DNA of 64,000 nt, from assembly GCF_014202975.1 (NCBI RefSeq), contig NZ_JACHHZ010000005.1:124001-188000 (forward strand), given 5' to 3'. Shown in pieces: positions 1 to 3,741 of the stretch. The position numbers and the translations under genes were made by a program. How positions within the stretch are numbered: the stretch's first letter is position 1; every line of letters begins with the position of its first letter. The notes beneath the pieces were generated by a model. That model had not been told where the DNA came from. It saw only the letters and a program-made list of their open reading frames with translations, and did no database searches. Origin of the DNA: Povalibacter uvarum (lineage in GTDB: Bacteria > Pseudomonadota > Gammaproteobacteria > Steroidobacterales > Steroidobacteraceae).

Positions 1-776
1 ACGGTTCCGCCACTGCGGGAAATGGTGGTGGAGGCGGTCGCGGTGGTGATGGTGGAAGCGGGGATGGCGCGAGCGGCGCAGGCGGAAATGGCGCCGGCGC
101 AGTCGGCGACACTGGCGCAGCATCACTCAATGGCGGCAATGATGCCGGCGGCGGCGCAGGTGGCAACGCGAACGCGGACGGCAACGGTGGCAACGCACGC
201 ACTCGGGGTGAAGGCGCAGATACTGCGACGGGTGGCGGCAGTGCGAGCACCGGTGGCACGAGCACAGGTGGTGCAGGCACTAGTGGAGCGAGCACGGGCG
301 GTGCCGGAACGGCAACGGGCGGAACGGCCACAGGCACGGGTGGCGCAAGCGGCGCCGTGACGAGTACGGCAGGCGCGGGCGGTGCAGGCGGTGCAGGTGG
401 CGAAGGCGGTGCAGCCACGAATGGTGATGCGAGCAACGGCGACTCGTCGACATCCGCGACGAACGGCAGCGCCACCGCAGGCGATGGTGCTGTTGGTGCG
501 ACAGGCGGCAACGGCGGTGACGGCGCAGGCGGAACGGGCGGCGTCGGCAATGGTGGCGAAGGCAACGGCGGCGTCGGCAACGGCGCAACCGGTGGAACGG
601 GCGGCAACGGCGGAACGATCACCGTCGACGCTGGCACGTTCGATCTGTCCGCGAACATGACTGGTACGGCGCAATCCGCGGCAGGCGTGCTCGTGGTCAG
701 CAACAACAGCGGCTTCGGTTCGCTGGTGCAGCAGGCCGTGACAGTGCAGGCGAACCTGAATCTCGGTGCTCCGTAA
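1..776 (+). CDS. Gly-rich repeat secreted protein, 3' part (putative amyloid/surface substrate)
   Basis: The reading frame is open from the window edge (codons in frame from base 3) to the stop at 774-776, so the start and any leader are outside. The visible part, about 257 residues, is dominated by Gly, Ala, Asn, Ser and Thr in short irregular GNGG, GTGG and GAGG units. It ends in a non-repetitive tail of about 45 residues that contains VVSNNSGFGSLVQQ and closes with NLNLGAP. The tail shares an Asn/Gln-rich beta-like motif with the small proteins at 897 and 1948. It is followed in the same direction by a C39 peptidase and an outer-membrane channel, so I infer that it is the major exported substrate. 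No enzyme domain is seen. The Gly-rich composition recalls mycobacterial PE_PGRS proteins, but nothing else supports kinship with them. Confidence 0.75.
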   Translation, partial: GSATAGNGGGGGRGGDGGSGDGASGAGGNGAGAVGDTGAASLNGGNDAGGGAGGNANADGNGGNARTRGEGADTATGGGSASTGGTSTGGAGTSGASTGGAGTATGGTATGTGGASGAVTSTAGAGGAGGAGGEGGAATNGDASNGDSSTSATNGSATAGDGAVGATGGNGGDGAGGTGGVGNGGEGNGGVGNGATGGTGGNGGTITVDAGTFDLSANMTGTAQSAAGVLVVSNNSGFGSLVQQAVTVQANLNLGAP

Positions 777-800
777 CGGGCGTCGACATTCGGAACCGTC

Positions 801-835
801 CTGTCCGGGCGGCGGGGAGATCGTCGTCCGGACAG
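801..835 (+). other. Inverted repeat downstream of the Gly-rich gene
   Basis: Eight bases, CTGTCCGG at 801-808, are repeated in inverted form at 828-835 with a 19-base spacer, 25 bases after the stop codon. No T-run follows, so it is not a classical intrinsic terminator. It may protect the 3' end of the upstream mRNA or attenuate read-through. Confidence 0.4.
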
Positions 836-848
836 CCTGCAGTGTTGC

Positions 849-879
849 GCGCATGACGGTCGCACAGGCCGTCATGCGC
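849..879 (+). other. Strong hairpin just before the next ribosome binding site
   Basis: A perfect 11-base stem (GCGCATGACGG at 849-859 with its complement at 869-879) closes a 9-base loop. It lies 17 bases before the start codon at 897, immediately ahead of the GAGGAG ribosome binding site. There is no T-run. By analogy with other surface-fibre operons it could set a ratio between the abundant repeat protein and the downstream genes. That role is inference. Confidence 0.5.
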
Positions 880-896
880 CGAGTGAGGAGGCGCCC

Positions 897-1262
897 ATGC
901 GTGAGGCTCACCTGTCTTCGGTATTGCTGTTCGCGCTGGCATGGCCAGCGTTGGCCACAGAGCCCGTTCAATCCGTGTCCGTGTCGGAAAACGTCGAGGC
1001 CGCCGATTCGTTCGGCGAGGCATTGTCGTCATCGACGCTCGAATCCCTGCGTGGCGGCGATCAGGACATCGTCGACAACGTGATTCACATCACTGGCGAA
1101 GTCACTGACAACAGCGCCACCAACGTCGCCACCGGTCACAACTCGATCAACGAAGGTTCGTTCGCGAACGCGAGCGGCCTCACGACGGTCGTGCAGAACA
1201 CCGGCGCCAATGTGCTCATCCAGAGCGCGACCATCCTCAACATCCAGTTCGTGGATCCATGA
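897..1262 (+). CDS. Small secreted protein with Sec signal and double-glycine site
   Basis: A 121-residue protein with a good GAGGAG ribosome binding site. Residues 1-20 form a Sec signal peptide ending ALA. A second processing site follows: LSSSTLESLRGG at residues 43-54 has Leu at -12, -7 and -4 and Gly-Gly at -2 and -1, exactly the pattern of double-glycine leaders cut by C39 peptidases. The predicted mature part (55-121) is short, rich in Asn, Thr and Ser, and ends in a beta-like motif, VVQNTGANVLIQ. The stop overlaps the start of the C39 peptidase gene (ATGA), so the two are translationally coupled. It is likely a minor or nucleating subunit of an exported fibre, comparable to FapB. The leader fit is directly visible; the fibre role is inferred. 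Confidence 0.8.
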   Translation: MREAHLSSVLLFALAWPALATEPVQSVSVSENVEAADSFGEALSSSTLESLRGGDQDIVDNVIHITGEVTDNSATNVATGHNSINEGSFANASGLTTVVQNTGANVLIQSATILNIQFVDP

Positions 1263-1948
1263 TCCGGACGACAATGATCCGAAGCGTGCTTGCGATGGGA
1301 CTCTGGATCGCTGCCGCCGCGCACGGCGGCAGCCTGGACGTGCACGCGCCACAGGACGGCGCCTATACGGTCCGCGTCACGAGCCTGCGCGAAGCAAGGT
1401 TCGCCACGACGATGCGGCAGAAGTACGACTTCAGCTGCGGCTCGGCGGCGCTCGCGACCCTGCTGACATATCACTACGGCCAGCCGGTCAGCGAGCAGGA
1501 AGTCTTCGCGCAGATGTACTCCGCAGGCGATCGCCCGAAGATCAGCAAGCAGGGCTTCTCGCTGCTCGACATGAAGCGCTACCTCACTGCGCACGGCTAC
1601 CAGGCGGATGGATTCGAGCAACCTGTCGAGCGGCTCTCACAGGAAGGCCTGCCGGCAATCGTGCTGTTGAGCGAGCGGGGCTATCGACATTTCGTTGTCG
1701 TGAAAGGCTTGCAGCGCGGACGTGTGCTGCTCGGCGATCCGGCGATGGGAACGCGCGCGATGTCCATCGATCGGTTCCACAGTCTGTGGGTCAACCGGAT
1801 CCTTTTCGTGATCCACAACAGGCGCGACCTCGCGAAGTTCAACGTAGCCCGCGACTGGCGCATCGCGCCGTCAGCGCCCCTGGAGCTCGCGATCGATCGG
1901 GAGGATCGCTTCGATACGCTGCCGATCCGGCATCCGGGGAGCTTGTGA
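1259..1948 (+). CDS. Periplasmic C39-family cysteine peptidase (FapD-like)
   Basis: A 229-residue stand-alone C39 peptidase domain without transporter or ATPase. The N-terminus is a signal peptide (the hydrophobic core follows the second Met, residue 6, which is an alternative start). The catalytic set is complete: Gln54 lies six residues before Cys60 in KYDFSCGS, His144 is in GYRHFVVV, and Asp160 is in LGDP, 16 residues after the His. The spacing matches that known for ComA/LahT-type peptidases. FapD in the Pseudomonas Fap system is a periplasmic protein of this type. The gene overlaps both neighbours by start-stop codons, and both neighbours encode proteins with double-glycine sites, which makes them the obvious substrates. 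It is expected to act in the periplasm. Confidence 0.88.
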   Translation: MIRTTMIRSVLAMGLWIAAAAHGGSLDVHAPQDGAYTVRVTSLREARFATTMRQKYDFSCGSAALATLLTYHYGQPVSEQEVFAQMYSAGDRPKISKQGFSLLDMKRYLTAHGYQADGFEQPVERLSQEGLPAIVLLSERGYRHFVVVKGLQRGRVLLGDPAMGTRAMSIDRFHSLWVNRILFVIHNRRDLAKFNVARDWRIAPSAPLELAIDREDRFDTLPIRHPGSL

Positions 1949-2412
1949 TGAGAGCGCTCCTTGCGACTCTCCTGTGCTGGAACCTGGCGCTCGCCGATCC
2001 GCTCGCCTGGCAGCCGCTGGAAACGGAGCAGCTCGATGAACTGCGCGGCGGCTTCGATACCGGCGAACTGCACGCGTCGTTCGGCATCGAGCGTGCGACG
2101 TATGTGAACGGCGAGCTGGTTGCCAGGATCAGCGTCGAGATCCCCGACATCGCCGCGATGACGCCGGAACAGGCGTCGGCGCTCGACCAGGCGATGAACA
2201 GCATCGTCCTGATCCAGAACGGGCCGAACAACAGCTTCGATACCAGCGACGTCGCGGCCGGAACCACTGTCATTCAGAACACGCTCAACGATCAGCACAT
2301 CGTCACGCTCACGACGATGTCGGCGGACGCGAACACGCTGGCGCACTTCCAGGGACTCAACGTCAACGAATCGCTGCAGCAGGCGCTCAACCGGGGTGTC
2401 GGCGGGCGATAG
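1948..2412 (+). CDS. Second secreted protein with double-glycine site
   Basis: A 154-residue protein. Its ATG overlaps the stop of the peptidase gene (TGATG at 1946-1950), which decides the start although the frame is open further upstream. Residues 1-16 form a Sec signal ending ALA. LETEQLDELRGG at residues 24-35 again gives Leu at -12, -7 and -4 followed by Gly-Gly. The mature part (36-154) holds two related Asn/Gln motifs, VLIQNGPNNSF and VIQNTLNDQH, resembling those of the other two putative substrates. It is likely an exported subunit or chaperone-like accessory of the fibre. No known domain is recognised beyond this. Confidence 0.78.
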   Translation: MRALLATLLCWNLALADPLAWQPLETEQLDELRGGFDTGELHASFGIERATYVNGELVARISVEIPDIAAMTPEQASALDQAMNSIVLIQNGPNNSFDTSDVAAGTTVIQNTLNDQHIVTLTTMSADANTLAHFQGLNVNESLQQALNRGVGGR

Positions 2413-2424
2413 ATCGGAGGAGTT

Positions 2425-3741
2425 GTGAAGGACATCCATCCGCGGCTGCAACGACGCAGCTCGATGATTGCCGTCGCCGTGCTGGCGGCCGTGTCCCTGC
2501 CGGCGCTCGCTGCTCCTCCGGATCGGTTGGAGGAATTGCGACGCCAGCTGGCTGAACAGAGCGCAAGGCTGGATCAGCTTCGCGATCAGTTGAGCGAGCA
2601 GGAAGCCACGATCGCGTCGCTACGCGATGCCCTGGACGAGGAAGTGCTCGACCAGCAACGCGGTGGAACTGCGACGGGAACGGATCAGTTCGTCGCCGCC
2701 GCCGAGCCGCAGATCAAAGCACAGTCGGTCGATGACATCACGTCGCCGCCAAAACCCGTCGGCGAGGCGCCGAAGCCGCAAACGCGTGCGCCCGAGGTCG
2801 CGCAGATCTTCGCGGAGCCGACGGTTCTCACCCAGAGCGGCAAGTTCGTCCTCGAGCCTTCGGTGCAGACTTCGTACTGGGCCAGCGATCGCGTATCGCT
2901 CATCGGCTACAGCGTCATCCCGGCGATCCTGATCGGCCTCGTCGATGTGCGCCGCGTGAAGACCACCAACGCCGTCGGAGCGCTGACTGCGCGCTATGGA
3001 TTCGGCAATCGCTTCGAGTTCGAGGTTCGCGCGCCGTACGTGTACACGTCCGTGGATACAGTGAGTCGCGAGATCCTGACCGGCAGTGCGTTCGACAATG
3101 TGTTCAATGCCGAAGGTCACGGTCTCGGTGATGTCGATGCGACGATGCGCTTCCAGCTCAATCGCGGTGACTACAGCAAGCCGTTCTGGATCGGGTGGCT
3201 GCGCTATCGCTGGCATACCGGCACGGATCCGTTCGAAGTCGTCACCGATTGCGTCACCCGATGCATCGGGAACACGACGGGTACCGGATTGCCGCTGGAA
3301 CTGCCGACGGGTTCGGGCTTCAATGCCGCGCAGGCGGGAGTCACCTGGCTCTACGCGTCCGATCCGGCCGTGTTCTTCGGTGGGTTCAGCTATCTCCACA
3401 ACTTCCCTCGCGACAATCTCACGCGAACATTGCTGGTCGGCGAGGAGGAGCCGCTCGGAGAAATCGCGCCTGGCGATATCTTCGGATTCAACGTAGGCAT
3501 GGGTCTGGCGCTGAACGAGAAGGCGTCGTTCAGCATCGGCTACGACCAGAGCCTCATCGACAAGACACAGCAGAACGGCGTCGATGTGCCCGGTGCTGTG
3601 CGAACGACACTGGGCACGCTTTCCCTCGGCGTCTCGTATCGCTACAACCCGACCTCGACGCTGAATCTTTCGCTCGGCGTCGGCGTGACACGGGATACGC
3701 CCGACGTAGCCTTCACCATCCGGACGCCGCTGACGTTCTGA
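2425..3741 (+). CDS. Outer-membrane channel with N-terminal coiled coil (FapF-like)
   Basis: A 438-residue protein with a GTG start behind GGAGG (2416-2420), 12 bases after the previous gene. A signal peptide ends near residue 29. Residues 33-75 are a heptad-patterned coiled coil (LEELRRQL, LDQLRDQL), followed by a Gly/Pro/Thr linker. From about residue 130 alternating beta strands run to a C-terminal Phe, as in outer-membrane barrels. This layout (periplasmic coiled coil plus barrel) is that of FapF, the trimeric channel of Fap amyloid export. A weak double-glycine-like site, LDEEVLDQQRGG, ends at residue 81. It is the last gene of the locus and the likely exit pore for the proteins encoded upstream. 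Confidence 0.75.
   Translation: MKDIHPRLQRRSSMIAVAVLAAVSLPALAAPPDRLEELRRQLAEQSARLDQLRDQLSEQEATIASLRDALDEEVLDQQRGGTATGTDQFVAAAEPQIKAQSVDDITSPPKPVGEAPKPQTRAPEVAQIFAEPTVLTQSGKFVLEPSVQTSYWASDRVSLIGYSVIPAILIGLVDVRRVKTTNAVGALTARYGFGNRFEFEVRAPYVYTSVDTVSREILTGSAFDNVFNAEGHGLGDVDATMRFQLNRGDYSKPFWIGWLRYRWHTGTDPFEVVTDCVTRCIGNTTGTGLPLELPTGSGFNAAQAGVTWLYASDPAVFFGGFSYLHNFPRDNLTRTLLVGEEEPLGEIAPGDIFGFNVGMGLALNEKASFSIGYDQSLIDKTQQNGVDVPGAVRTTLGTLSLGVSYRYNPTSTLNLSLGVGVTRDTPDVAFTIRTPLTF

Follow-up and report, generated by a model that had tools for sequence, protein, structure and literature searches.

The closest described relative of the locus considered here is the Pseudomonas Fap system (fapABCDEF), which exports amyloid with the help of FapD, a peptidase of family C39, and FapF, a barrel preceded by a coiled coil. 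The cysteine of FapD is needed for secretion of FapC, and the N-terminal part of FapE was found by mass spectrometry to be missing in cells; the same paper called the target of FapD unclear and favoured FapE (Rouse 2017, PMC5557850, cited here and below from parts of its text). In the sections cited, a 2018 review (PMC6173800) treated the FapD substrate as undetermined and reported fapD-fapF pairs in five further phyla, with substrates unnamed in that part, while a portion of a 2025 review (PMC12822426) gives FapE and FapF as the presumed targets of FapD. The 64,000-nucleotide stretch of Povalibacter uvarum DNA analysed here (contig NZ_JACHHZ010000005.1, positions 124,001 to 188,000; hereafter the window) carries at its positions 1-3741 a Fap-related locus, which is a sister branch of the canonical Fap systems with subunits of its own. 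Two small secreted proteins of this locus, named GG1 and GG2, have a putative second leader of the double-glycine type behind the signal peptide, and a motif in the same register occurs in FapE.

The locus consists of five genes, all on the forward strand. The first encodes a secreted, Gly-rich repeat protein and the last a barrel with a coiled coil; between them lie GG1, the C39 peptidase gene and GG2, in this order. A preliminary description, made from the sequence alone, had proposed five co-directional frames with three of the genes coupled by start-stop overlaps, and all the frames and two overlaps were recovered. GG1 (897-1262, 121 residues), just upstream of the peptidase, overlaps the peptidase gene (1259-1948) by four bases, and the latter overlaps GG2 (1948-2412, 154 residues) by one base, which joins these three genes. 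The barrel gene (2425-3741, 438 residues) has a GTG start. GG2, situated between the genes of peptidase and barrel, occupies the position that FapE has in Fap. The repeat protein is indeed Gly-rich, but its gene is truncated by the window edge, so that the window contains the 3' part only (1-776), which is rich in Gly, Ala, Ser, Thr and Asn. The genome shows that the gene extends further, starting 537 bases before window position 1; the full gene (L002:6463-7776) encodes 437 residues with a signal-peptide-like start.

The kinship of the barrel and the peptidase to FapF and FapD is nearly certain. The barrel protein matches the NCBIfam FapF model from position 7 to position 420 of 420 with an E-value of 5.9e-42, its 143.9 bits lying under the NCBI equivalog cut-off of 700 bits. 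When the PDB sequences were searched with a profile of 18 barrels, FapF was the sole significant match (1.8e-59; next chain 0.11). The AlphaFold2 (AF2) model of the barrel protein (mean pLDDT 76.9, pTM 0.63) consists of a predicted long helix, the coiled coil, at residues 32-79 (positions 2518-2661) and a barrel. A fold search with this model gave FapF chains as the top 18 matches (target TM 0.80-0.86), followed by COG4313. The combination of an N-terminal coiled coil with a FapF-type barrel, a feature of Fap, is thus found by profile, AF2 model and fold search. Two other identities of the barrel were considered and rejected as weaker than FapF, namely a phenol-degradation porin (PF13557; E-value 0.013, under the cut-off) and a COG4313 channel (4rl8; fold match, E-value 3.1e-12). 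The likeness to FapF proposed in the preliminary description has therefore survived comparison with unrelated porins, and FapF is a better match than every other solved structure. The match to NCBIfam FilC is at an E-value of 4.6e-11 and 42.7 bits (cut-off 630).

The peptidase is a stand-alone protein of 229 residues, which contains the C39 domain only, without an ABC (ATP-binding cassette) transporter domain. Its signal-like start, judged by eye, predicts export by the Sec pathway, which is another feature of Fap. It matches the Pfam C39 family above Pfam's cut-off (PF03412, E-value 3e-20), NCBIfam FapD at 1.8e-41 and 141.9 bits (equivalog cut-off 330) and NCBIfam FilB at 6.4e-39 and 134 bits (cut-off 475). 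The peptidase and the barrel thus both score below the cut-offs of the Fil models. In a PDB search with a profile of 17 peptidases the nearest structures were double-glycine proteases (6mpz, 5.9e-12). Residues Gln54, Cys60, His144 and Asp160, which we take to be catalytic, are unchanged in all 17 of the relatives compared. These results bear out what had been read from the sequence, a stand-alone C39 enzyme of FapD type with a signal-like start and a full Gln/Cys/His/Asp set.

The relatives of the locus were collected in two sets. In a C39 scan 24 of 118 relatives had a match at an E-value of 1e-3; six, the window genome included, scored at least 79 bits, and among the 14 members of the genus these are G000 and G002. 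The FapF model matched at 1e-3 in 69 of 369 genomes of the class, in many cases in the coiled coil or another part alone. Set 1 comprises 41 loci, chosen by a C39 or barrel match: that of the window, five from the C39 scan and 35 from the FapF-model scan. The barrel is present in all 41 and C39 in 40, the exception being at a contig end. The loci were sorted into the branch of the window (17 with C39), canonical Fap (16, L079-L094) and a remainder named Fil-like (7). In L091 and L094 the distance between C39 and barrel exceeds 6 kb; in these canonical-type loci (L091 8909-16783, L094 1579-9437) fapF is about 6 kb away from fapD and fapE, with apparent glycosyltransferase and membrane protein genes in between.

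Set 2 was obtained by scanning GTDB species genomes with the alignment of 17 peptidases. The scan gave at least 595 stretches, at least 585 of them confirmed, and the best 80 of 585 were kept. Set 2 thus contains the nearest 80 relatives and is hence biased to the branch of the window, the remaining 505 being unsorted; at least one member (L122, Pseudoxanthomonas daejeonensis) is apparently a genome already in set 1 (G129). The genera are Lysobacter, Pseudoxanthomonas, Dyella, Luteibacter, Rhodanobacter, Cupriavidus, Paraburkholderia, Burkholderia, Variovorax, Massilia, Dechloromonas and others. Hidden Markov models (HMMs) trained on set 1 found GG1, C39, GG2 and barrel together in 75 of the 80 loci, GG1, C39 and GG2 in four, and C39 and GG2 in one, so that the gene combination seen in the window is kept by most of its nearest relatives, in line with the preliminary description. 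GG1 is immediately upstream of the C39 gene and GG2 immediately downstream, and the barrel gene is at times several kb away or on the opposite strand. In 75 of 79 loci the gene that ends immediately before GG1 encodes a protein rich in Gly, Ala, Ser, Thr and Asn; these proteins were picked by a C-terminal pattern that was chosen after seeing examples, without a control. They are 143-1105 residues long (some are cut by contig ends), and while the total lengths vary, the last 60 residues are 52-68% identical to those of the window protein (AQSAAGVLVVSNNSGFGSLVQQAVTVQANL..., positions 594-773) in 25 named relatives. Cupriavidus metallidurans CH34 has the complete gene set, on a megaplasmid. GG2 was matched at an E-value of 1e-3 in 10 of 299 sampled genomes of the phylum.

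The putative leaders occupy positions -12 to -1 relative to the expected cut, at 1023-1058 in GG1 (LSSSTLESLRGG) and at 2017-2052 in GG2 (LETEQLDELRGG). In the aligned GG2 proteins of set 2 the Leu at -7, the Arg at -3 and both glycines (-2 and -1) are each shared by all 80, and 75 of the 80 have Phe at +1. The Leu at -7 is likewise present in all 79 GG1 proteins. With alignment gaps closed by eye, 75 of these 79 have Gly-Gly, and the remaining four read SGK (two), HAG and RGA (one each). At -12 every GG2 (80/80) has L, I, V, M or A, and so do 73/73 GG1, these being the ones among the 79 with a match to L...[RS]GG. Both families thus agree with the published consensus of C39 leaders, LSX2ELX2IXGG (PMC3897388, from the part of the paper cited), at -12, -7, -2 and -1, partly at -4, and mostly not at -8 and -11. 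Behind a signal-like start L...[RS]GG occurs in 67 of 73 GG1 and 52 of 65 GG2, compared to 6 of 668 other signal-bearing open reading frames (ORFs) of at least 90 residues. Signals were called by a home-made heuristic, and the control ORFs are from the same loci, some of them perhaps not being genes. The double-glycine motif, first noticed in the two window proteins, is therefore far above chance. The only invariant columns in an alignment of 37 GG2 are RGG and Gln-Asn, and RGG is kept, by reading, in 17 of 17 GG2 of set 1. The AF2 model of GG1 is weak (mean pLDDT 61.5); its most confident ten-residue block, residues 41-50, is on a short helix (45-51) that coincides with the leader. Profiles of GG1 and GG2 found no match among solved structures at an E-value of 10. 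Judged from these sequence comparisons, the double-glycine leader behind the Sec signal of GG1 and GG2 is likely to be the site of the C39 peptidase. In L060 (9471-10682) the frame that ends in GG2 starts, by reading, with a long coiled-coil-like stretch ahead of the leader, which is either a fusion or a frame effect.

Several observations weigh against this assignment. Just 62 of 80 GG2 and 43 of 73 GG1 have L, I, V, M or A at -4. At -8, where the consensus has Glu, most have Arg, Thr, Gln or Ala, and Ser at -11 is found in 35 of 80 GG2. A pattern made strict by requiring L, I, V or M at -4 matches 42 of 73 GG1, 30 of 65 GG2 and 3 of 668 controls; a broad pattern matches 69 of 73 and 51 of 65, but also 44 of 668 controls. 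The GG1 leaders of the deeper set 1 vary, with RGG in five and RGR, RGM, RAK, SGR, RGT, RAM, RGQ and others in the rest, and no leader was seen in the GG1 of L065 of this set.

The same register is found in the canonical systems. The pattern [LIVM]..[LIVMQ]RG[RK][FY] is present in an ORF beside the C39 gene in all 16 canonical loci, and the two such ORFs tested with the NCBI FapE model both match it. FapE scored above the NCBI cut-off in 21 of 25 genomes of one genus, probably Pseudomonas, and the FapE genes above this cut-off have [LM]..LRG[RK][FY] in 23 of 23, about 30-34 residues from the start. All of 39 FapE proteins have a hydrophobic residue (L, I, V, M or A) at -12 and Leu or Met at -7, with -2 occupied by Gly and -1 by Arg or Lys; 31 of the 39 have Glu at -8. 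Aeromonas caviae also carries the FapE motif. GG2 matches a FapE profile at an E-value of 6.6e-5 over 31 columns, and the two proteins share the place between peptidase and barrel as well as the leader. In the Fil-like loci the pattern [LIVM]....[LM]..[LIVM].[GA]G lies within 60 residues of the signal in 8 of 13 nearby signal-bearing ORFs, which represent 4 of 7 loci, compared to 1 of 668 controls; all eight have the Ala-Gly form. The ELxxLRG-[R/K] site of FapE, being in the register of the GG1 and GG2 leaders, is thus a candidate for the likeliest FapD site in the canonical system. FapE had already been suspected to be a FapD substrate, and what is new here is the specific candidate site. Among open-licence PMC papers none was found that names a leader in FapE. 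Of the Fap papers listed Rouse 2017 alone contains the word, and in the text covered it is used twice, for an OmpA leader and in a reference title.

Other small proteins near these loci have related motifs. Three adjacent small secreted proteins of about 95 residues each (L095 5730-6977) lie by a Fil-like C39 and barrel, and all have an M..[IV][TS]AG leader behind the signal. A FilA-like protein (L097 284-1762), whose N-terminal region matches DUF6160 (PF19657), has the post-signal motif MDESAMSDVSGQAG, which may be another form of leader. Short secreted proteins that may be FapA (L080 3863-4198, L079 14266-14580 and L093 13478-13846) have the leader-like ELSSMRG, ELHEISG and ALAGIRA, respectively, a motif less regular than that of FapE. 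In the parts of Rouse 2017 cited, FapA was observed not to be processed.

The FapE assignment has its own difficulties. The residue at -1 is Arg or Lys, not the Gly of the consensus, and cleavage may therefore take place one residue away or be absent from this site. The likeness of GG2 to FapE is confined to the leader and about 16 residues, and once the leader is removed nothing remains. Plain homology of GG2 and FapE is not established by these comparisons: the score observed without the leader was 17.8, whereas column-shuffled profiles gave a mean of 19 and values up to 135, so that this score is uninformative. The NCBIfam FapE model matched none of 37 GG2. Furthermore, in the part of Rouse 2017 cited, peptides were recovered throughout FapA-D, and the FapE gap, about 70 residues, is longer than the leader.

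Some of these difficulties would be explained if the leader were a docking or export tag for the coiled coil or barrel of FapF and the peptidase cut elsewhere, for example in the barrel linker. Such a tag could accommodate the Arg or Lys at -1 of all 39 FapE and the variable -1 of the deep GG1 proteins, and Rouse 2017 names, within the portion cited, both cleavage of the FapF linker as an alternative and a possible FapF targeting sequence at the N terminus of FapE. This alternative is nevertheless unlikely, given that -12, -7 and -2 agree with the leader consensus published for C39 (PMC3897388), that the motif is common to otherwise unlike proteins whose shared partner enzyme is C39, and that its register recurs with Ala-Gly in four of the seven Fil-like loci. 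Cleavage at the leader remains the preferred assignment.

The position of the locus relative to canonical Fap was examined in trees made by a quick method with SH-aLRT support, without an outgroup and with the short C39 of L082 left out. In the C39 tree a split with support 94 sets the 37 rows of the window's branch apart, and in the barrel tree one with support 99 does so for its 38 rows; canonical Fap is set apart in the same way (15 rows, support 95; 16 rows, support 99). Supported branches divide the two in either tree, and the window's proteins do not group with canonical FapD and FapF. The Fil-like rows are outside the window's branch in both trees; they are few and long, and their placement is unsure. 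The NCBIfam models of FapB, FapC and FapE matched none of the window proteins (the 257-residue part within the window was searched for the repeat protein), and the controls matched; for FapA no NCBIfam model matched even a control FapA. Because the FapD and FapF cut-offs are missed and no FapB, FapC or FapE model matches, the locus is placed in a sister branch and not among the fap operons. Genome G129 contains a canonical fap locus together with a locus of the window's branch (L070, L087), so that the two are not simple replacements of each other. The preliminary view of a related but rearranged Fap-like export system is thus upheld, the C39 and barrel trees both separating it, whereas the suggestion of a distinct class was too strong for what is a sister branch of a known kind.

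An ordinary but divergent fap operon, in which the repeat protein and GG1 would be FapB and FapC and GG2 would be FapE, altered by sequence drift only, is improbable. The gene order X-Y-D-E-F does parallel B-C-D-E-F, and the FapD and FapF homology and the one Fap-like unit in GG1 (see below) are what such an operon would have. The separation in both trees (support 94-99 by the quick method), the subunit models that miss the window proteins yet match canonical controls, and the occurrence of both kinds of locus in G129 argue against it, as does the number of repeats, one unit at most being seen where Fap operons nearly always have three (PMC12822426, in the part cited).

The subunits are nevertheless not entirely unlike those of Fap. 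An HMM made from 40 FapB/C units of canonical loci was searched in 7765 ORFs of set 2, and GG1 proteins (79 in all) filled the first eight ranks and made up 22 of the 25 best. When 51 GG1 were compared with 18,950 NCBIfam models at an E-value of 0.01, the matches were solely to FapC (2e-4) and FapB (4e-4), with one member each; as a yardstick, 37 GG2 gave four unrelated single matches at 0.002-0.008. In a profile alignment GG1 matched the C terminus of the repeat protein with a probability of 87 and an E-value of 4e-6. A reverse HMM, made from GG1, found other large ORFs of set 1, mostly repeat proteins, about ten of them at 1e-20 to 8e-5, and one protein in the place of FapB at 3.7e-4. Some results point the other way: no single score of the repeat HMM is significant (best E-value 0.6), and none of the window's own proteins matches a Fap subunit model. 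The window's own repeat protein reaches only 1.1 with the reverse HMM, and the C termini of the repeat proteins had no match to a Fap model. As far as sequence comparison can tell, the GG1 family and many repeat-protein C termini probably carry one diverged Fap-type repeat, which in the window's GG1 would be the C-terminal unit at 1131-1250, on family-level evidence. The earlier statement that obvious FapC-type repeats are lacking has to be amended at the level of families, although the window copies match no Fap subunit model. Likewise, GG1 and GG2, described there as the substrates, do bear leaders, but they are probably minor components, GG2 standing in place of FapE, and the Gly-rich repeat protein would be the likelier bulk subunit.

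Export of a bacteriocin or peptide signal, with GG1 and GG2 as double-glycine peptides matured by the adjoining C39 peptidase, is very improbable despite the leaders, because there is no ABC transporter domain as in type I bacteriocin export, where C39 is fused to one, and furthermore signal-like starts are present in the 229-residue C39-only peptidase and in the small proteins, the barrel that accompanies them resembles FapF, and the mature parts in the window would be about 67 and 119 residues long, not short peptides.

The locus as a whole is best explained, with good though not full confidence, as a surface-fibre export locus of a separate Fap-related branch, in which C39 cuts the leader and the products pass the barrel. 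All five proteins would reach the periplasm or outer membrane via Sec, as their signal-like starts suggest. The periplasmic FapD-like peptidase would then recognize the second leader of GG1 and GG2, by the hydrophobic residue at -12, Leu at -7 and the glycines at -2 and -1, and cut both proteins there. By analogy with FapF, removal of the leader may license GG1 and GG2, and with them the bulk repeat protein, for passage through the barrel. Once outside, the repeat protein, through its conserved C-terminal unit, and GG1, through its related one, might form a cross-beta, Fap-like fibre or surface coat, the least certain of these steps. Formation of amyloid by the products is somewhat favoured.

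The surroundings of the locus appear to be unrelated. Upstream of the repeat gene, on the same strand, is a gene for a multihaem cytochrome c plus TPR protein (L002 3675-6056), and downstream of the locus are genes of an alpha/beta hydrolase and a DUF502-like protein. A scan for promoters and terminators gave nothing beyond what shuffled sequences give.

Fap, the window's branch and Fil might be three branches of one route, in which Sec export is followed by C39 removal of a second, double-glycine-type leader, licensing passage through a FapF-type barrel; the balance leans slightly towards this proposal. If it is true, the FapD site is ELxxLRG-[R/K] of FapE, and the plain double glycine is nearer the ancestral form. 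The sister branch has kept Gly-Gly, and therefore the altered form in FapE becomes readable and yields a prediction at the level of residues; a precise candidate site for FapD is the wider gain. The 2025 conclusion, in the part of the review cited (PMC12822426), that Fap is an evolutionarily fixed three-repeat system is qualified by the existence beside it of a related group with different subunits.

Like the window's locus, Pseudomonas Fap has an exported C39 peptidase, a barrel with a coiled coil, a similar gene order, a small secreted protein at the FapE position whose leader is in the same register, and the Fap-type repeat unit, of which the window's branch probably has one. Unlike it, the window's locus has as its likely bulk protein a long Gly/Ala/Ser/Thr/Asn-rich repeat protein with one C-terminal unit, its leaders end in Gly-Gly and not in Gly-Arg/Lys, and it forms a separate branch in both trees. 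The Fil 'putative pilus' (NCBIfam FilA, FilB and FilC) shares with it the C39 peptidase and barrel and, as seen in four of the seven Fil-like loci, a motif in the register of the leader that ends in Ala-Gly, but the window's barrel matches FilC more weakly, the FilB and FilC cut-offs are missed, the substrates differ and the branches are separate in the trees. The peptidase-containing ABC transporters LahT, PCAT1 and ComA share C39 homology and the double-glycine leader consensus. In such transporters C39 acts in the cytosol as part of the transporter (Rouse 2017, PMC5557850, in the part cited), whereas the window's peptidase stands alone and its putative substrates have signal-like starts.

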